Source: a virus
DNA length: 56,483 nucleotides
IMG/VR virus record: IMGVR_UViG_3300010966_000019
Coordinates: 1 to 56,483 of that record
Direction: 5' to 3' (one strand)
The translations under genes were made by a program, and so were the position numbers. The notes under the pieces were generated by a model. The model saw nothing but the letters and a program-made list of their open reading frames with translations, searched no databases and was not told where the DNA came from. Below are positions 11,678 through 56,036 of the stretch, in pieces (within the stretch, counting starts at the first letter, position 1; each line of letters starts with the position of its first letter).

Positions 11678-11705
11678 TTGACAAACTTAAAACAACTGGT
11701 ATAAC
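11678..11705 (+). promoter_or_regulatory. Strong candidate sigma-70 promoter before capsid region
   Basis: TTGACA (11678-11683, 6/6), 16-base spacer, TATAAC (11700-11705, 5/6), placed right after the scaffold stop. It would drive the capsid genes, now separated from it by an HNH gene at 11782. Spacer length equals that of the promoter at 10678, exactly 1000 bases upstream by coincidence. Confidence 0.6.
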
Positions 11706-11734
11706 TTTAACAGAGCGAAGAGGGTAGCTCCCCT

Positions 11735-11764
11735 GACTGTGCCAATCCACAGTCTAGCTCTTTA
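11735..11764 (+). promoter_or_regulatory. Leader hairpin followed by boxA-like sequence
   Basis: GACTGTG (11735-11741) and CACAGTC (11748-11754) form a perfect 7-bp stem with a 6-base loop, followed directly by GCTCTTTA (11757-11764), which matches the core of boxA (TGCTCTTTA). Stem-loop then boxA is the order in ribosomal RNA leaders, where NusB and S10 bind boxA for antitermination. Inferred role: antitermination through the terminators at 14021 and 14056. Confidence 0.35.
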
Positions 11765-11781
11765 TCTGATTGGGGATAGTT

Positions 11782-12357
11782 ATGGAAAATTGTAAGACTT
11801 GTGGTCAATGTAAGATCACTAAAAATATTTCTGAGTTTCATAAAGATAAAACAAAGAAGTTTGGTGTTGGTAGCGCATGTAAGACATGTGCCAAAGAAAT
11901 TTCTTATAAATACTATTTAAAAAATTCTGAAGGTATTCGTAAGAGAACTTCTATATATGCTAAGTCATACACACCTAAGTTTAATAGAGAAATAGATTCT
12001 AGATTAAGAAATCTGTGTACTAAAGCTAAAGGTAGAACAAAAGAATTTAATCTTGTAGATCTTGACTTATTAGATCTATGGGGTAAACAAGATGGTCGAT
12101 GTGCTTATACTAAATTGCCGCTGCTTGCAACAGCCAACCAATTTAATACAGTGAGCCTCGATAGAGTAGATAGTAGTAAAGGCTATGTTGTTGGAAACAT
12201 TCAACTTGTCTGTGCAGCTATCAATAAGATGAAACAGGAATATTCTGAAGAGATGTTCATTCTGTTTTGTCTGTTAGTAACGCAAAACAATAAACTGTCA
12301 GAATCACCTGAAAGTTTGTTAGCCCGTTATGTTCCATTGGGCACAGTGGACAAGTAA
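11782..12357 (+). CDS. HNH homing endonuclease 3
   Basis: 191 residues from ATG 11782 (GGGGATAGTT before it); a TTG further up is unlikely. Zinc fingers CKTCGQC and CKTCAKE at the N-terminus, then a basic helical region, then the nuclease core VSLDRVDSSKGYVVGNIQL and SEEMFILFC, the same core as the genes at 2490 and 43797. It sits between the promoter-leader and the capsid gene, so capsid transcription must cross it. A gain by homing is the likely origin. Confidence 0.8.
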   Translation: MENCKTCGQCKITKNISEFHKDKTKKFGVGSACKTCAKEISYKYYLKNSEGIRKRTSIYAKSYTPKFNREIDSRLRNLCTKAKGRTKEFNLVDLDLLDLWGKQDGRCAYTKLPLLATANQFNTVSLDRVDSSKGYVVGNIQLVCAAINKMKQEYSEEMFILFCLLVTQNNKLSESPESLLARYVPLGTVDK

Positions 12358-14007: not shown

Positions 14008-14020
14008 TAGCTAGGTGATG

Positions 14021-14046
14021 TGGGAGGGGCTTAACCGCCTCTCCCA
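14021..14046 (+). terminator. Intrinsic terminator after capsid genes
   Basis: TGGGAGGGGC (14021-14030), loop TTAACC, GCCTCTCCCA region to 14046: a 10-bp stem with one G-T pair, followed by TTCTTGT. Placed 14 bases after the stop of the decoration gene. It should separate abundant head transcripts from the tail genes. Confidence 0.75.
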
Positions 14047-14055
14047 TTCTTGTAT

Positions 14056-14076
14056 GCTCTATTAGAGAGCGTTTTT
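14056..14076 (+). terminator. Second intrinsic terminator
   Basis: GCTCT (14056-14060), loop ATTAG, AGAGC (14066-14070), followed by GTTTTT (14071-14076). It lies 10 bases beyond the first terminator, making a tandem pair. The next gene starts at 14097 with its ribosome binding site just after this hairpin, and no promoter is seen between, so tail genes depend on readthrough. Confidence 0.6.
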
Positions 14077-14096
14077 AAAACTAAGAGGATTCTCTA

Positions 14097-14540
14097 ATGG
14101 CTATTACATCTGCCCTTTGCACAAGCTTCAAAAAAGAACTGCTTGAGCGTAAACATGACTTTAATGCTACAAGCGGTCATACTTTTAAGATTGCCTTGTA
14201 CACATCTTCAGCAACCCTTGGTGCTTCCACTACTGACTATACAACCTCCAACGAAGTTGTAGGCACTGGCTACACTGCTGGCGGTATTGCTCTTACAAAC
14301 ATTGATCCTACTAGCAGTGGCACTACAGCATTCATTGACTTTGCTGACGCTACTTGGTCTAGTGCAACTATTACCGCTGCTGGCGCTTTGATTTATAACA
14401 CAACCACTGATGGTGGAACAGGTACAACTAATGCTGTAGCTGTCATCTCTTTTGGTGGTGATAAGACATCAACTAACGGTGACTTTGTAATTCAATTCCC
14501 AACAGCAGACGCAAGCAACGCTATTGTCCGTATTGCATAA
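14097..14540 (+). CDS. Structural protein (tail or head-tail region)
   Basis: 147 residues, Thr/Ala/Gly-rich. MAITSALCTSFKKELL, then TFKIALYTSSATLGASTTDYT and GYTAGGIALTN, and DATWSSATITAAGALIYNT are blocks I recall from a widely occurring small phage structural protein of unknown role. Beta-strand rich, no membrane segment. RBS AAGAGGATTCTCTA. First gene after the terminator pair. Confidence 0.7.
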   Translation: MAITSALCTSFKKELLERKHDFNATSGHTFKIALYTSSATLGASTTDYTTSNEVVGTGYTAGGIALTNIDPTSSGTTAFIDFADATWSSATITAAGALIYNTTTDGGTGTTNAVAVISFGGDKTSTNGDFVIQFPTADASNAIVRIA

Positions 14541-28989: not shown

Positions 28990-31900
28990 ATGGCTATTAA
29001 ATTCTTAGAGGAGGAAGAGCAATCTTCCTCGTCCACAATTAAGTTTACTGATACACCAAGTAAGCCTTCCATTGTCTTTACTGACGCAGCCCCTCCTGCA
29101 CCTGCTCCTCAGCCCCCAGAAGATCTAACTAAACCTGCCTTCCTTGCTCCTCGTCAAAGAGCTACAGCATTACAAGAAAGAGCTGTTAAGGTTAGAGCAG
29201 AAGAAGCAGCTCAATATGCATATGCAGATTTATACACAAATCCAGAGTTGTTAAACAAATTAACAGCGTATGGCAGTGTTCGTCTTGGTAAGACTGGTGT
29301 TCCACAGAAGGGTGAATCATCTAAGGATTATGTTAATAGAGTTGTTAGTCATATACGAAGTGTTGTAGAAGACCCCAACCCTTTGCGTGTTACAGCAGAA
29401 CAAGAGTGGATAAACAATTCTAAACCAGAAGATGTTGTTAAGGCAGGAGAAGCTTATGACATTTTTCAGAACACAGCTTCCTTCTTAGATCCAAGAGGTC
29501 AAGCCCCATTATCAGCATTGAAAGACTATGCTGGTCTTATGCTATCTAACCCACTTACCTATGCCAGCTTAGGTGTAGGTAAAGTGGCTGTAAATATTGT
29601 AGGTAAAGAAGCAGCTAAAGTTGGTATTAAGAAAGCACTAACAACAAAGATTGGTGCTACTGCTGCAGCATCTCCATTATTGTTTGAAGGTGCTAGTGGT
29701 ACTGTTACTAATGTCTCTAAACAAAAAAGAGAACTGGCTGTAGCAGATGCCACAGTTAAAGAGATGGAAAAGATTCTTCCAAGTTTGTCTGAAGAAGATC
29801 AAAACACACTGCTACCTAAACTGGAAGCAGAAAAAGCTAAAGTGGCTAAAGGAATTAGCACTTCAGAAGCAATTACTATGGGAGCTATTCAAGCTCCATT
29901 TGGTTTGTTAGAAGTGGCTCCGCTGATTGTAGCTGCTACAAAGGGAACTAAGTTTCTTAAGGGCGATAAATTAACACTTAAAGATTTAACAGATGCCCGA
30001 AAGAAACAGACAGAAGTATCTAAGAATCCTACAGCATTAACTGGTGATGAAGCCTCTGACAATGTAGCTGTAACAACCACTAACATCTATGATGGTGGTG
30101 ACTTGTTAGACATGCAGGGATCACCTACTAGCATTGCACAGATGCAGGTAAAGAATTCTATTGATAAGCAAGCCGATCTTATTGCTGCTTCTATTTGGAA
30201 ACAGATACCAGAGTTTGCTCCTAAAGCAGGAGAGAAAACATTTGAAGCTGTCCAAAGAACATTGGATAGTTTTGATAAGCTTCCTGACAATGTCATCAAA
30301 CAATCGATGACAGATGCTGGTACTGACTTGCCTAATTTTATGGCAAGGCTAGAGGCCGCTGGCTTAGATGAAGATGCTCTAAAGAAGTTCTCTTCAATGT
30401 ATGGTGTGTCTACCAGTGACGCTGCTCGTACATTGCAAAGCAAATCTGTTATCAGCAGAATGCTTAATAAGATGAAAGAGGTAGATCCAGAAGGAGCTAA
30501 AGCTGTAGATGCTTTGTTTGGTAAGAAAGATCCAGTGGCTGGTCCAATGATGACCTTCAAAGGATGGATTGATAAGGCTGATAGAAACATGATTACAGCC
30601 ATGACCACCAACATGAGTACGGTTATGCGTAACGCCTTTGGCGTTGGTACTAACTTAACTTATGGTGCAGCAGAAGAAGGTTTAGAATCTCTCATCTTTA
30701 ATACAGGAAGAAAGATAGCAGGAAAAATGCGTGGCTCTCCTGTGGCTGGAGACATTGGTAAAGGCTTTAACGGTGTTATTGATGACACTGTAAGTGGTTA
30801 CTTTTATCTAGGACAAGGTGATCTATCAAGAGAGATTACTGAAGAAGCCTTAAAGAATAACCCAATGCTTATGAGCAAGATGTTAGCTACAGCAGAGGAT
30901 ATGAAAAGTTCAGACCTCATAGCTCCCATCCGTATCTTAAACACACCTGCTGTGATAATGGATAACTATGTAAGAAGAGCTATCTTCTCTGCTTCTATTG
31001 ATAATAATCTTAGGAAAGCAGGTCTTAACTTAGTTGATTTACTTGCACAAGATAAGAACATTCCTATTGATGTATTAAGACAAGGTGTTGATGATGCTCT
31101 TACATTTACATTTAGTAAGACACCCACTGAGGGAATGGGATTGGCCTTTGTTAAAGGTGTTGAAGCAGCAAGACCTATCAGTACAGCAGTATTTCCTTTT
31201 GCTCGTTTCTTAGTTAATGCTACACAGTGGACAGCTAAACATTACAACCCTTGGTATGCAGGTAAGGGTGCTGCAGAAGCCATTGAAGGTGTTAGACTTT
31301 TAAAGAACGGTGATGAAGCTGGATCTCAGATGCTGTTACAAGGCTCTGAAAAGATAGCACAACAAGCTACAGGCATGGCTACTTTGTTGGCTGCTTACGC
31401 CTATAGAAAAGATAACCAAGACACTCCTTGGAATATAGCAAAGAGTGATGATGGAACTAAAGTAGATCTTAAATATTTATTTCCAGTGAATGTTCCATTT
31501 GCTTTGGCTGACTTCTATTACAAAATAGCTAATGGAAATCCTGAAGACTTTAAAGCTATGGACTTAGTTGAGGCTCTCACTGGTTTTAAATCTGTTGGTT
31601 CAACTTCAGAATCACTAGAGAGAGTAAAAGAAGTTGCTTCTTCTATGGTGTCTGGAGATGGACAAGAGACAGATCAATCAGCATTAAACAAAGTATCTAG
31701 GTCTGCAGGTGATTTAATTGGTGCTTGGCTAGGTAGAGCCACTGTACCACTCAATCAGATTAGTGACATTATTAGTGCATTCGATAGCAATGAAGCTTTG
31801 CCTAGAGACATCTATGTTACTAAGCCAGAAGAAGAAAGAACATTCCTCACTGCTGTTGGTAAGAACATTCAAAAAGGCATACCAATATTGAAGCAAGCTT

Positions 31901-34167
31901 TGCCTGAGTATCAACCAGCTACAAGAACACAAGCACCTTTCCGTGACACTGGTCCATTAAAACAAATGACTGGCTTAGCTTTAGTGCCACCAAAGAATGA
32001 AATTGAAACTGAGATTGAAGCTAGAAAAATTCCGTTTAATAAAATCTTCTCAACCACTGGTGATAAGACAGTGGATGCTGCTGCCAGAAGCTTTATGGCT
32101 AACAACATTGATAAGTACATAGCTCCAATTATTGCTATGGACTTATATAAGAAAGCTACTGATGAAGGTAAAGCAATAGCACTTACTAATGCATTCTCAG
32201 AATTACAAAGTGAGGCGAAGAAGATAGCTAAAGATGAATCAATTGCAAAGTTCTATAGCATGGAGAAAGTTCCTCCTATTGAACAAAAGCAATTTGAAGC
32301 ACTACAACCAAAGCTTCGTAGAGCTACTCTTGATTTCTATAAACAACAACGTGGAATATCTTTTGAAAGCGATAAAGACTTTAAGAAGTATGGCGTTGCT
32401 TTAGCTATTTCTGATGCATTGAAGCAAGAGCAAGACGCTGTAGCTGTACAGAAACCAACAGAGAAAGCTACTGGTGGTGTTGTTGGTTATCAAGTAGGTG
32501 GTTTTGCTACTAAACAAATAGTCAAAGAAGCTGGCTCTTCTGCTGTGATGAAGAGTTCTATGTCTTTGTTAAAAGAGATGCAGGATGCAGCAGCTAAGAC
32601 AGCAGTAAAGGAAACACCAACAGAAGTAATTGCTCCTCCTGTAGTTAAAGAAGGTGCTGCTTCTATTATGGCTAAGAAGCCTTATGTTAAGAATAAGTAT
32701 GGTCCTGCTGTGTCTGAGCCTAAGCTAGTGGAAGAAACTGTACCAGTGACTAAGCAGATGGAAGAAGCTATTCCACCAGTTAAAGAAGAGCCACTGCCTG
32801 AGATTAAAACAGAGCTACCTGTAGAAGAACCACCATCCATCTATAACACCAATTTAAATAAGCCGGGCTATGGAGGTGCTAATCAACAGATGGCTGCTGA
32901 AGGTATTTTCAGTAATCAAGTTAGAAAGAATACACTAGCAGATATTAAAACAATTAGACAAGAATCTCTAGCTGCTATTGAAGGATCTCCTTTGTTTGAC
33001 GGTATTGAGAAAGATGCCATAGCTGTTGCACAAGGAGACTATAGGATTAAGACTGGTAAAGAATTTACTGCTAACAATCCTACAGATGTTGAAGCCTTTG
33101 CTGAGTTTGCTAAAGGATATCAAAAGAAATTAGAGGACTTGAGAGAACAATATAAAGATAGACCACCAAAGATATTGATTCATGGTACGGTTACAGAGAG
33201 AACTCCAGAGAAAGTTAAGCGTGGTTTCTATGATCCACAAACTCTAGGGGAGGATAAGACACATCGTGAACTTGATGTTGGTGCAACATCATTCACTAGT
33301 GACTTGAGACTGAATTATAAGAATGAAGCTTTTGGTGGACCAATACCACAGAATATTTCATACACTGAAATACCTTATGCTGATTACATATTCAGAAGAG
33401 TTAATCTACCATTAGATGCATATCGCAAGAAGGATATGAACATCATTGCTCAGACTATTACAGGAGATCCTAGTGTGGCTAGACCACTAGGTATCCCACG
33501 CAACATGGGTTATAGTGAAACTGAGGATGCGTTTGTAGAAAGTGAAAAGCTTATAATAAAAACTGACTTTGATAAAGTCAAAAAGCAATACGGTCTAATT
33601 AAAAAGCAAGAAGATGTTTCAAATAAATTAACTAATGACTTATTAGACATCTATGATAATGTAGATGATGATGGTTTTAATTTGCTTGATCACATTAGAA
33701 TGAAGACTGAGAAACCTACTGAGGTTTTTAAAGCTTACAACAATGTGAAGAATTTATTTAAGAACGAATTCAGACACACTGGTGGGAAGGTAGCAAATCA
33801 GCGAGGGTTTTTACCTGTGCCAGATAGTAATCAAACACTTGTAGAAGAACTACGAATGAGAGCTTCTACAGATAACACAGATATTATTGATGGATTGGCG
33901 GTGTCTTTAGAAAGATCAGGATCTAAAGATAAAGCTTTGGCTTTAAAAGAACTCAGTAAGAATCTAAAGACACTTACAACAATTCCTAATTATGCTGAAC
34001 CTAGTTTCACTAATAAAGATGTATCTAAATACATTAAAAGAGAAACTGAAATAACTAATAATATTAGAGACTTAGTTGGTAACGATTTTAAGATTGTTGA
34101 TCCTAACAATCCTAAGAATACTAAGAGAATTGGCTTGGCTAAGGGTGGCTTAGCCAGCCGTAGATAA
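28990..34167 (+). CDS. Giant internal virion protein with ART-like C-terminal region
   Basis: 1725 residues, the largest gene. Acidic N-terminus, a helical body with hydrophobic segments (GAIQAPFGLLEVAPLIVAA; ATAAASPLLFEGASG) and a VFPFARFLVNATQWTAKHY block. A TGGVVGYQVGGF motif lies near residue 1160, then a Pro/Glu-rich linker (1210-1280). About residues 1395-1520 contain ILIHGT (H1398), a GATSFTSD strand (1432-1438) and ESE (1517-1519), which resembles the H, S/Y and E positions of ADP-ribosyltransferases. It ends IGLAKGGLASRR. Likely injected with the DNA. The enzymatic reading is a hypothesis. Confidence 0.6.
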   Translation: MAIKFLEEEEQSSSSTIKFTDTPSKPSIVFTDAAPPAPAPQPPEDLTKPAFLAPRQRATALQERAVKVRAEEAAQYAYADLYTNPELLNKLTAYGSVRLGKTGVPQKGESSKDYVNRVVSHIRSVVEDPNPLRVTAEQEWINNSKPEDVVKAGEAYDIFQNTASFLDPRGQAPLSALKDYAGLMLSNPLTYASLGVGKVAVNIVGKEAAKVGIKKALTTKIGATAAASPLLFEGASGTVTNVSKQKRELAVADATVKEMEKILPSLSEEDQNTLLPKLEAEKAKVAKGISTSEAITMGAIQAPFGLLEVAPLIVAATKGTKFLKGDKLTLKDLTDARKKQTEVSKNPTALTGDEASDNVAVTTTNIYDGGDLLDMQGSPTSIAQMQVKNSIDKQADLIAASIWKQIPEFAPKAGEKTFEAVQRTLDSFDKLPDNVIKQSMTDAGTDLPNFMARLEAAGLDEDALKKFSSMYGVSTSDAARTLQSKSVISRMLNKMKEVDPEGAKAVDALFGKKDPVAGPMMTFKGWIDKADRNMITAMTTNMSTVMRNAFGVGTNLTYGAAEEGLESLIFNTGRKIAGKMRGSPVAGDIGKGFNGVIDDTVSGYFYLGQGDLSREITEEALKNNPMLMSKMLATAEDMKSSDLIAPIRILNTPAVIMDNYVRRAIFSASIDNNLRKAGLNLVDLLAQDKNIPIDVLRQGVDDALTFTFSKTPTEGMGLAFVKGVEAARPISTAVFPFARFLVNATQWTAKHYNPWYAGKGAAEAIEGVRLLKNGDEAGSQMLLQGSEKIAQQATGMATLLAAYAYRKDNQDTPWNIAKSDDGTKVDLKYLFPVNVPFALADFYYKIANGNPEDFKAMDLVEALTGFKSVGSTSESLERVKEVASSMVSGDGQETDQSALNKVSRSAGDLIGAWLGRATVPLNQISDIISAFDSNEALPRDIYVTKPEEERTFLTAVGKNIQKGIPILKQALPEYQPATRTQAPFRDTGPLKQMTGLALVPPKNEIETEIEARKIPFNKIFSTTGDKTVDAAARSFMANNIDKYIAPIIAMDLYKKATDEGKAIALTNAFSELQSEAKKIAKDESIAKFYSMEKVPPIEQKQFEALQPKLRRATLDFYKQQRGISFESDKDFKKYGVALAISDALKQEQDAVAVQKPTEKATGGVVGYQVGGFATKQIVKEAGSSAVMKSSMSLLKEMQDAAAKTAVKETPTEVIAPPVVKEGAASIMAKKPYVKNKYGPAVSEPKLVEETVPVTKQMEEAIPPVKEEPLPEIKTELPVEEPPSIYNTNLNKPGYGGANQQMAAEGIFSNQVRKNTLADIKTIRQESLAAIEGSPLFDGIEKDAIAVAQGDYRIKTGKEFTANNPTDVEAFAEFAKGYQKKLEDLREQYKDRPPKILIHGTVTERTPEKVKRGFYDPQTLGEDKTHRELDVGATSFTSDLRLNYKNEAFGGPIPQNISYTEIPYADYIFRRVNLPLDAYRKKDMNIIAQTITGDPSVARPLGIPRNMGYSETEDAFVESEKLIIKTDFDKVKKQYGLIKKQEDVSNKLTNDLLDIYDNVDDDGFNLLDHIRMKTEKPTEVFKAYNNVKNLFKNEFRHTGGKVANQRGFLPVPDSNQTLVEELRMRASTDNTDIIDGLAVSLERSGSKDKALALKELSKNLKTLTTIPNYAEPSFTNKDVSKYIKRETEITNNIRDLVGNDFKIVDPNNPKNTKRIGLAKGGLASRR

Positions 34168-48377: not shown

Positions 48378-48565
48378 TTGTCTCTCGCCTCCATCATCAT
48401 GTCAGCCATCTTGTAAGCCCTTGCAGGAATCTCTTCATCTTTAAGAACCCATCCACTACCAAGCATAGCTTGCATAGTCTTAGCTGCGAAGTAGTCACGC
48501 AAGGTCATGCCATCACTACCTAGTCCTGTATAGGGGAATGCTTGTTGCGGTTCAGTTTGTTCCAT
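48374..48565 (-). CDS. Conserved small phage protein (GMTLRDYFAAK)
   Basis: 63 residues from ATG 48565, six bases after AGGAGG; a start at 48571 would overlap this site. SDGMTLRDYFAAKTMQAML followed by ARAYKMADMMMEAR is a frequent pattern in proteobacterial phages. Function unknown. Overlaps the glycohydrolase end by 14 bases. Confidence 0.7.
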   Translation of the reverse strand: MEQTEPQQAFPYTGLGSDGMTLRDYFAAKTMQAMLGSGWVLKDEEIPARAYKMADMMMEARDK

Positions 48566-49394
48566 CGTCACCTCCTAGTGCATAAAGTTTTTCTGCCATA
48601 TTAATCAAGTTGTCTTTGTTTACTAGCTTGTCAAGCCATCTAGTGGGTATACCCTTCAGTCCATACTTACGCCCTGCCAACATACCAGTGACAGCACCAA
48701 CAGTGTCAGCGTCATAGCCCTTGTTCACTGCCATCACTAAAGCTTTCTCAAAGCTTGATGTTTCTTCAACACATTCCCATGCTGTGATGTAAGCGTGGTT
48801 GATTGTTCCCCTGCTACCATAGTCACGCTGATGACGGAGGTAGTCAAAGGCATCGTCCTTCTTACCTGACATAAGCTCAGTGACAAAGGCAGTGATGTAA
48901 TGCACAGTGTCTGTGTTGCCATGCGTCATCAATGACACAGCAATGCTCTGTGCCAAAGCATGAGGCATGCTGTTGTGATTGGCTAACACAATGGGAGCAA
49001 GTCGCATGATAGATCCATTACCACTGGAGCTATAGCTACAGCTACCTGCATAGGGATGTGTTGGTGTGATGCGGTCAATAGCTTCACTGCATGTCCTGCC
49101 AATGTCAAAGACATAGTTGCGAGTACCAAAGTGTCCTGTCTTCTTCCACATCTTGAAGTTCATGGCAATGGCTTCAGGATTGAAGCGCTTGCTAGTAATG
49201 TATGCATCAGCAATTGCTACAGCCATAGCGCCATCGTCTGTCCACTCACCAATGGCAGTGTCATGCACACCACCACCTTCCATCTCTGTCAATGTCTTCG
49301 TCATCTCATGTGGTCTAACAAATTCCAAGGGTGCACCCAGTGCATCACCAATGAACAGACCCATGAACATACCAATTGCTTTATCTTGATGCAT
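48552..49394 (-). CDS. ADP-ribosylglycohydrolase
   Basis: 280 residues of the DraG/ARH family. Metal and substrate motifs: GDALGAPLEF (16-25), WTDDG with T52-D53-D54, SSGNGSIMR (123-131) and GYDADTVGAVTG (D228, D230, T231). Removes ADP-ribose from proteins or other targets in the cytoplasm. In a phage this could undo host ADP-ribosylating defences or reverse the phage's own modification. See the giant virion protein for a possible matching transferase. RBS AGGATATTTA. Confidence 0.9.
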   Translation of the reverse strand: MHQDKAIGMFMGLFIGDALGAPLEFVRPHEMTKTLTEMEGGGVHDTAIGEWTDDGAMAVAIADAYITSKRFNPEAIAMNFKMWKKTGHFGTRNYVFDIGRTCSEAIDRITPTHPYAGSCSYSSSGNGSIMRLAPIVLANHNSMPHALAQSIAVSLMTHGNTDTVHYITAFVTELMSGKKDDAFDYLRHQRDYGSRGTINHAYITAWECVEETSSFEKALVMAVNKGYDADTVGAVTGMLAGRKYGLKGIPTRWLDKLVNKDNLINMAEKLYALGGDDGTN

Positions 49395-55462: not shown

Positions 55463-55670
55463 CCATTGCTTCAGCCAGTGCATTTTCACTGTCGATAGTG
55501 ACAGCATCAAACACCTGTTGCTTCGTGCCTTTGTAACCCATACTCTTCAAAATTGCATAGCAAGTTTGACCCTTGGCGGTAAGTCTCATGCCTCGCATCT
55601 CAGCTTTAAGACCTTGTCTTAAGACACGAAGACGATAAGCATTGATTTGTTCCGGTGTAGTTAATACCAT
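55455..55670 (-). CDS. Conserved small basic early protein
   Basis: 71 residues from ATG 55670. TTPEQINAYRLRVLRQGLKAEMRGMRLTAKGQTCYAILKSMGYKGTKQQV is a pattern common in proteobacterial phage early regions, helical and basic. Preceded by hairpin 5 (TTTCCT-AA-AGGAAA, 55675-55688), which here lacks an upstream gene. Function unknown. Confidence 0.7.
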   Translation of the reverse strand: MVLTTPEQINAYRLRVLRQGLKAEMRGMRLTAKGQTCYAILKSMGYKGTKQQVFDAVTIDSENALAEAMAS

Positions 55671-55674
55671 TTTG

Positions 55675-55688
55675 TTTCCTTTAGGAAA
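55675..55688 (-). promoter_or_regulatory. RBS hairpin 5 (no upstream gene)
   Basis: Minus strand TTTCCT-AA-AGGAAA before the ATG at 55670, 6-bp stem. As no gene ends here, no ribosome would open the stem, so this first gene may be constitutively limited or need another factor. Confidence 0.5.
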
Positions 55689-56036
55689 AGAGAAGCGACC
55701 TTGCTTCTGTTAAAGCTAAGCTTTAGCCCTAACAGAAACCCACTGTCTAGCACCGACCCCAGTGCCACAATGGAAAATGTCTCTCACACATATTATCAGC
55801 ATGATATGTAAGCATGCCCTGCACATTCACCTTGTACAGGCTAGGCTAGTCCATAGCAATGATGCTTGCCTTGCTAATAGCAAGCACCCTCACCGACACT
55901 AGTATCAATTTTTAAAGAGCAAGTCGAGATAAGCTTCGCTTCACAGCGGGACAAATCCCTATAAAGAACGCTAGATAACATTCTCCAAAGAAGGTAGCTA
56001 TGCTACCCCTTTAGGCAAGGCTATCGTAAGCTTTGC
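55689..56036 (-). promoter_or_regulatory. Untranslated leader with hairpins and boxA
   Basis: A 348-base gap between the GP88-like gene and the early micro-genes. On the minus strand it holds hairpins GTAAGC-AAA-GCTTAC (56040-56026), GGTAGC-ATA-GCTACC (56007-55993), CGCT-GTGA-AGCG (55948-55937), then TGCTCTTTAA (55921-55912), then CTTGCT-ATT-AGCAAG (55884-55870), and an AAAGCT-A-... element near 55715. No strong promoter was found. It looks like a structured leader of the early operon. Confidence 0.5.
55912..55921 (-). promoter_or_regulatory. boxA-like antitermination site
   Basis: Minus strand TGCTCTTTAA matches the boxA consensus of ribosomal RNA leaders exactly over ten bases. A short stem-loop (CGCT-GTGA-AGCG) ends 15 bases upstream and another hairpin lies about 27 bases downstream. 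It would bind NusB/S10 and help polymerase pass the terminators at 50605 and 37732. Confidence 0.45.

Follow-up and report, generated by a model that had tools for sequence, protein, structure and literature searches.

Among bacteriophages, boxA has been described chiefly in lambdoid systems equipped with an N protein (PMC6614801, PMC11893012). The antitermination complexes of ribosomal RNA (rrn) operons act mainly against Rho and also reduce intrinsic termination in vitro (PMC6614801), and where a leader is long and untranslated, boxA counteracts termination by Rho (PMC4807359). In the CRISPR leader of Legionella, a boxA (GTTCTTTAAAA) results in ~10-fold more array RNA (PMC7862264). Searches of the open-licence literature gave no report of boxA leaders for the phage group described here.

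The DNA analysed is the IMG/VR record IMGVR_UViG_3300010966_000019, positions 1–56,483 (56,483 nt, hereafter the window), and its closest terminase relatives are HMO-2011-type phages. A 366-nt early leader is located on the minus strand between a gp88-like gene (PF17338; 56037..56483, truncated by the window end) and a small first gene (55464..55670, minus), which in this clade encodes 68–69 amino acids of unassigned function and is replaced by unrelated genes in other clades. The hairpin GGTAGC-ATA-GCTACC followed by TTCTTT (56007–55987, minus) lies between gp88 and the leader and is a possible gp88 terminator. The early arm also harbors an ADP-ribosylglycohydrolase-like gene (48552–49394, minus).

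The early leader is probably, judging from its sequence, a phage version of the rRNA antitermination signal, on which a Nus complex would protect the leader and perhaps the operon from Rho. Its boxA (TGCTCTTTAAAA, 55910..55921, minus) contains the top conserved 10-mer of the leader and equals the rrn boxA of the probable host family. The initial annotation proposed boxA-like sites in two leaders, the early one (55921–55912, minus) and the capsid one (11757–11764). Both strings are present at these positions and both are preceded by a stem-loop, yet only the early site proved to be a boxA. The published consensus GYTCTTTAANA (PMC5725501) is satisfied by GCTCTTTAAAA at 55920–55910 (minus). The longer early site TGCTCTTTAAAAATTGAT (55921–55904, minus) occurs once in the window, while GCTCTTTA by itself is no commoner than chance predicts (3 copies vs 3.0 expected), and the same holds for TGCTCTTTAA with at most one mismatch (8 vs 7.6); the consensus has 2 copies against 0.47 expected, the second of them antisense within the late ORF 28990–34167. 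The letters of the window are thus no proof of a boxA by themselves; the proof comes from comparison.

Relatives were collected via the proteins flanking the leader on both sides, and all 10-mers of the leader (366 nt) were looked for in 76 of them, with at most one mismatch allowed. In this unbiased scan TCTTTAAAAA ranks first among 367 10-mers, being found in 57 of the 76 relatives (median 20). TCTTTAA[AC]AA was found 90–280 nt past gp88 in 57 of 79 relatives; the other 22 have a different sequence there, mostly an ORF directly behind gp88, and one of these (L151) carries the element slightly farther downstream. Among the first 196 loci TCTTTAAMAAT was counted 77 times in sense and 7 times in antisense orientation, in contigs that are related and not independent. 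An alignment of 25 diverse leaders shows no change in the boxA core, at a mean column identity of 58%; these rows were chosen by the boxA pattern, so the proper test of conservation is the unbiased 10-mer scan. GYTCTTTAANA fits 50 of the 74 collected phage sites, a few of the 74 being stray matches. Near gp88 of the marine relatives HMO-2011, CRP-235, CRP-6 and HTVC115P no boxA was found. Matches in isolate genomes (L200, L206, L221 and others) were rejected as leaders, all of them being one protein-coding stretch. Some other constraint, for instance base pairing to the Shine-Dalgarno region, could also explain why the boxA letters are conserved.

The phage whose DNA fills the window probably infects Limnohabitans or a member of its family. 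The early boxA is the same as that in the rRNA leaders of Limnohabitans and its family, as exemplified by the rrn leader of Limnohabitans lacus, where GGGTTCTTTAAAAATATACAGCCGATAAGCGTGGGCG stands before the 16S gene. The rrn motif was seen in 40 of 151 genomes of this family, 32 of A-type (AAAAA) and 8 of C-type (ACAA). The phage boxA is mostly of A-type, and its A/C spectrum resembles that of the rrn leaders of the host family; GATCTTTAACA is also present in Burkholderiales rrn leaders. In the cultured Limnohabitans phage DC31 the leader, otherwise unrelated, contains a hairpin, GTTCTTTAAAAATTG and a two-part hairpin (fold z −6.1). A search for the leader element in Limnohabitans-family genomes gave no match in sets of 60 and 301 genomes, a result that shows little, as the search lacked a positive control. 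The T7-like rhizobial phages Lo5R7ANS and TRX32-1 have TTCTTTGACAA in long noncoding leaders (L252, ~677; L253, ~1985), possibly an alphaproteobacterial boxA; these leaders fold no better than shuffles.

A near-consensus sigma-70 promoter (10–12 of 12 bases) is situated 26–47 nt upstream of boxA in 19 of 60 distinct leaders, which places boxA near the 5' end of the transcript in those 19. Directly before the leader of the window's own clade no consensus promoter was found. Just before boxA, in a boxB-like position, the fold contains a small hairpin of the GAAGC-RAA-GCTTC type (55926..55959, minus). Hairpins occupy this place in relatives from most clades, with a mean z of −1.8 that is weakly significant against simple shuffles. 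boxC (GCGTGGGCG) was not present in the phage leaders inspected.

The boxA is followed by ~200–250 nt of structured RNA with strong covariation. The whole structured leader, from boxA to the first gene (55671..55921, minus), has a fold z of −3.8. Its first helix P1, enclosing the variable inner hairpin P2 (55846..55902, minus), is formed by CTAGT (55902–55898) and ACTAG (55850–55846), with a conserved GTCGG (55897–55893, minus) in the same region. The pieces for the P1 alignment were picked by a sequence anchor and not by pairing. All 5 pairs of P1 are double-changed, and its covariation is 0.62 against 0.33 in shuffled and at most 0.21 in slid controls; the shuffles use related sequences, so such counts are not probabilities, and the slid control partly corrects for phylogeny. 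Hairpin P3 (55818..55840, minus; CCTGTACA with TGTGCAGG) shows double changes in all 6 counted pairs. P4 (55788..55809, minus) pairs ACATAT with ATATGT under a loop containing a conserved TGATAAT; 100% of its cells are paired and 5 of 6 pairs are double-changed. Counting of pair changes thus confirmed P1, P3 and P4. P5 (55740..55773, minus), in which CCATTGT pairs with ACAGTGG around an inner GGCACTGGGGTCGGTGCT, has double-changed pairs in the RNAalifold output. P6 (55705..55737, minus; TTCTGTTA with TAACAGAA) comes from the fold of the window leader and is variable, with pairing kept in relatives as judged by eye. The 3' end of the leader forms a TTCC...GGAA hairpin over the Shine-Dalgarno sequence. 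The full-leader RNAalifold fold comprises 37 pairs, 26 of them double-changed. RNAalifold also pairs boxA with the Shine-Dalgarno region, a pairing without covariation and too invariant to test. With the covariance model, a single copy was detected in the window and further copies in L179, L183, L184 and L151, and Rfam offered no credible match for the leader RNA.

The capsid-side site is of a different nature. Its GCTCT (11757–11761) pairs as the 3' side with AGAGC (11712–11716) in a helix that covaries, and was rejected as a boxA; two relatives (L048, L053) carry the compensated pair GTCCT and AGGAC. The conserved unpaired CTCTTTAA was not found at this site, the AA is absent, and the letters behind GCTCT vary (TTTAT, TTTGT, TTGTT, TTCAT, TTCTT). 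The stem-loop ahead of it and GCTCT belong to one helix/pseudoknot element, a separate leader of an HNH gene with its own sigma-70-like promoter (TTGACA-16-TATAAC). This element has 22 pairs with 97% of cells paired and 10 pairs double-changed, was seen in 16 sequences including MW202701, and had no match in Rfam. A neighbouring hairpin loop pairs, with covariation, to the sequence beside the HNH ribosome-binding site, and the leader resembles a switch that controls translation of the HNH gene. A promoter with such a multi-helix pseudoknot leader, ahead of a small HNH gene adjoining the capsid gene, occurs at 11678–11784 of the window and also in L003, L048, L053, L072 and L001. Neither by pattern nor by covariance model was a conserved boxA or a copy of the early-leader element found in the late arm. 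Nus-factor involvement, suggested by the initial annotation for both leaders, is the most likely reading for the early one, where a conserved host-type boxA heads a conserved structured RNA, and was dropped for the capsid leader.

The early leader stands before ~14 unrelated clusters of first genes among the relatives, and in L179, L183 and L184 an additional gene is inserted between it and the usual first gene. This exchange speaks for an effect at the level of transcription and against a riboswitch or autoregulation of a single gene. It also bears on a nut-like reading, in which boxA with P1/P2 would be a phage nut site for an unrecognised small protein similar to lambda N, making the polymerase resistant to Rho and to intrinsic terminators. 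A conserved covarying hairpin ~6 nt behind boxA, as in nut, the recurring apical loop motifs GUGACAG and UAGCAAG, and the intrinsic terminators of the early operon, one of them conserved, are in keeping with it. However, the first gene differs between the ~14 clusters, the scanned early proteins show no family match to an antiterminator, the hairpin exceeds the size of boxB and the boxA is of the full rrn type, so that we regard a nut site as unlikely. The variety of first genes also makes a phage antiterminator encoded beside the leader less likely, though one may be encoded elsewhere.

The other suggestion of the initial annotation, that the leader RNA itself acts, is made more attractive by the covariation. 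In its put-like form the folded leader would bind RNA polymerase and keep it from pausing and terminating, with boxA as an accessory or an aid to loading. About 200 nt of strong covariation, independence from the next gene and the want of a linked protein agree with this, but boxA is the most conserved segment, which is unexpected were Nus factors dispensable, and the size and number of helices are unlike those of put (PMC9378689); we consider it quite improbable. A role as decoy, in which leader RNA made in abundance would sequester NusB/S10 through its boxA and so reduce rRNA synthesis by the host, would suit an early RNA headed by a host-identical boxA and has a precedent in nutL RNA, which at high level ties up Nus factors and depresses rRNA expression (PMC4807359), but is very hard to credit for a leader joined to early genes and not closed by a conserved terminator. 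Equally remote is control of translation, with boxA or the leader fold deciding whether ribosomes reach the binding site of the first gene, in the manner of the suhB boxA: the hairpin over the Shine-Dalgarno sequence and the RNAalifold pairing of boxA with it would fit, but ~240 nt separate boxA from the start codon, the first gene was exchanged ~14 times while the leader persisted, and the pairing never covaries.

If the leader is an rrn-type antitermination signal, host RNA polymerase would start upstream and transcribe the small hairpin and then boxA, which would be bound by host NusB/S10. NusA, NusG and probably SuhB would join and travel with the polymerase, and the Nus complex would shield the long untranslated structured leader, and perhaps part of the early operon, from Rho; it may also help the polymerase past weak intrinsic terminators. 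In place of boxC or boxB, the covarying RNA would offer NusA, SuhB or polymerase a site to dock, or it may be no more than a structure whose co-transcriptional folding is aided. Binding of NusB/S10, the anti-Rho effect and its range, antitermination, and readthrough at the terminator before nrdA are steps that we infer from the sequence.

Intrinsic terminators without a promoter behind them were claimed for both arms. The claim stands for nrdA, where a hairpin followed by T6 (37753–37732) ends ~23 nt from the start codon, which leaves no room for a promoter in between. Of 40 distinct regions upstream of nrdA, 33 contain a terminator-like hairpin, and a conserved TATAAC box is located ahead of the terminator and not behind it, so that nrdA either needs readthrough or is attenuated from the TATAAC box. 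The boxA lies 18 kb upstream of this terminator. The succession of TATAAC box, intrinsic terminator and nrdA start within ~70 nt (37775–37707, minus) looks like an attenuator. Before the tail genes, the hairpin at 14020–14047 has a poor T tail in the window but is kept in most relatives inspected, and the one at 14056–14076 is short, with T5. Within 14056–14100 the 3' arm TTAGAGA of this terminator (GCTCTATTAGAGAGC-G-T5) can pair alternatively with TCTCTAA at the start of the next gene, a possible switch. The reported lack of a phage RNA polymerase agrees with our finding no such family among the large ORFs of the window, several large late ORFs matching nothing at all.

We put forward tentatively that the early leader represents a new type of phage RNA, made of a host ribosomal boxA and a 200–250-nt fold; the two would together make an antitermination element that needs no phage protein and has arisen more than once, in phages such as DC31 that are unrelated but share a host group. 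A boxA of rrn type that is coupled to a conserved structured RNA, does not depend on the gene behind it and is spread over abundant uncultured freshwater phages would mean that phages make direct use of the ribosomal antitermination machinery. The cultured DC31 is a ready test system, and the leader offers a new RNA family for study.

Each of the known systems resembles the early leader in part. The repressing boxA of the suhB type is likewise located inside a 5' untranslated region, but close to the start codon, in contrast to the ~240 nt of the phage leader. HK022 put is also a structured RNA of an early phage transcript, apparently without a linked protein; compared by description, it has ~70 nt and two stem-loops, with boxA unmentioned in PMC9378689, whereas the present leader has a boxA and at least 5 helices. 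A further mark of put RNA is that it binds the zinc-binding domain of the RNA polymerase beta' subunit. The lambdoid nut site shares the early phage position, the boxA, the short spacer and the hairpin, and differs in that the phage leader has a full rrn-type boxA, a larger hairpin unlike boxB, whose loop is small and purine-rich, and no N protein found among the early proteins scanned. The CRISPR boxA of Legionella Lens (GTTCTTTAAAA) is the same 11-mer as in most phages here and also precedes a long untranslated RNA, though in a bacterial locus for which PMC7862264 describes no comparable structured leader. In comparison with the rrn signal, the phage leader is without boxC, has a long covarying RNA and stands before phage protein genes, but shares with it the boxA of the probable host lineage, probably the small hairpin ahead, a sigma-70 promoter close upstream in one third of the leaders, and untranslated structured RNA behind.
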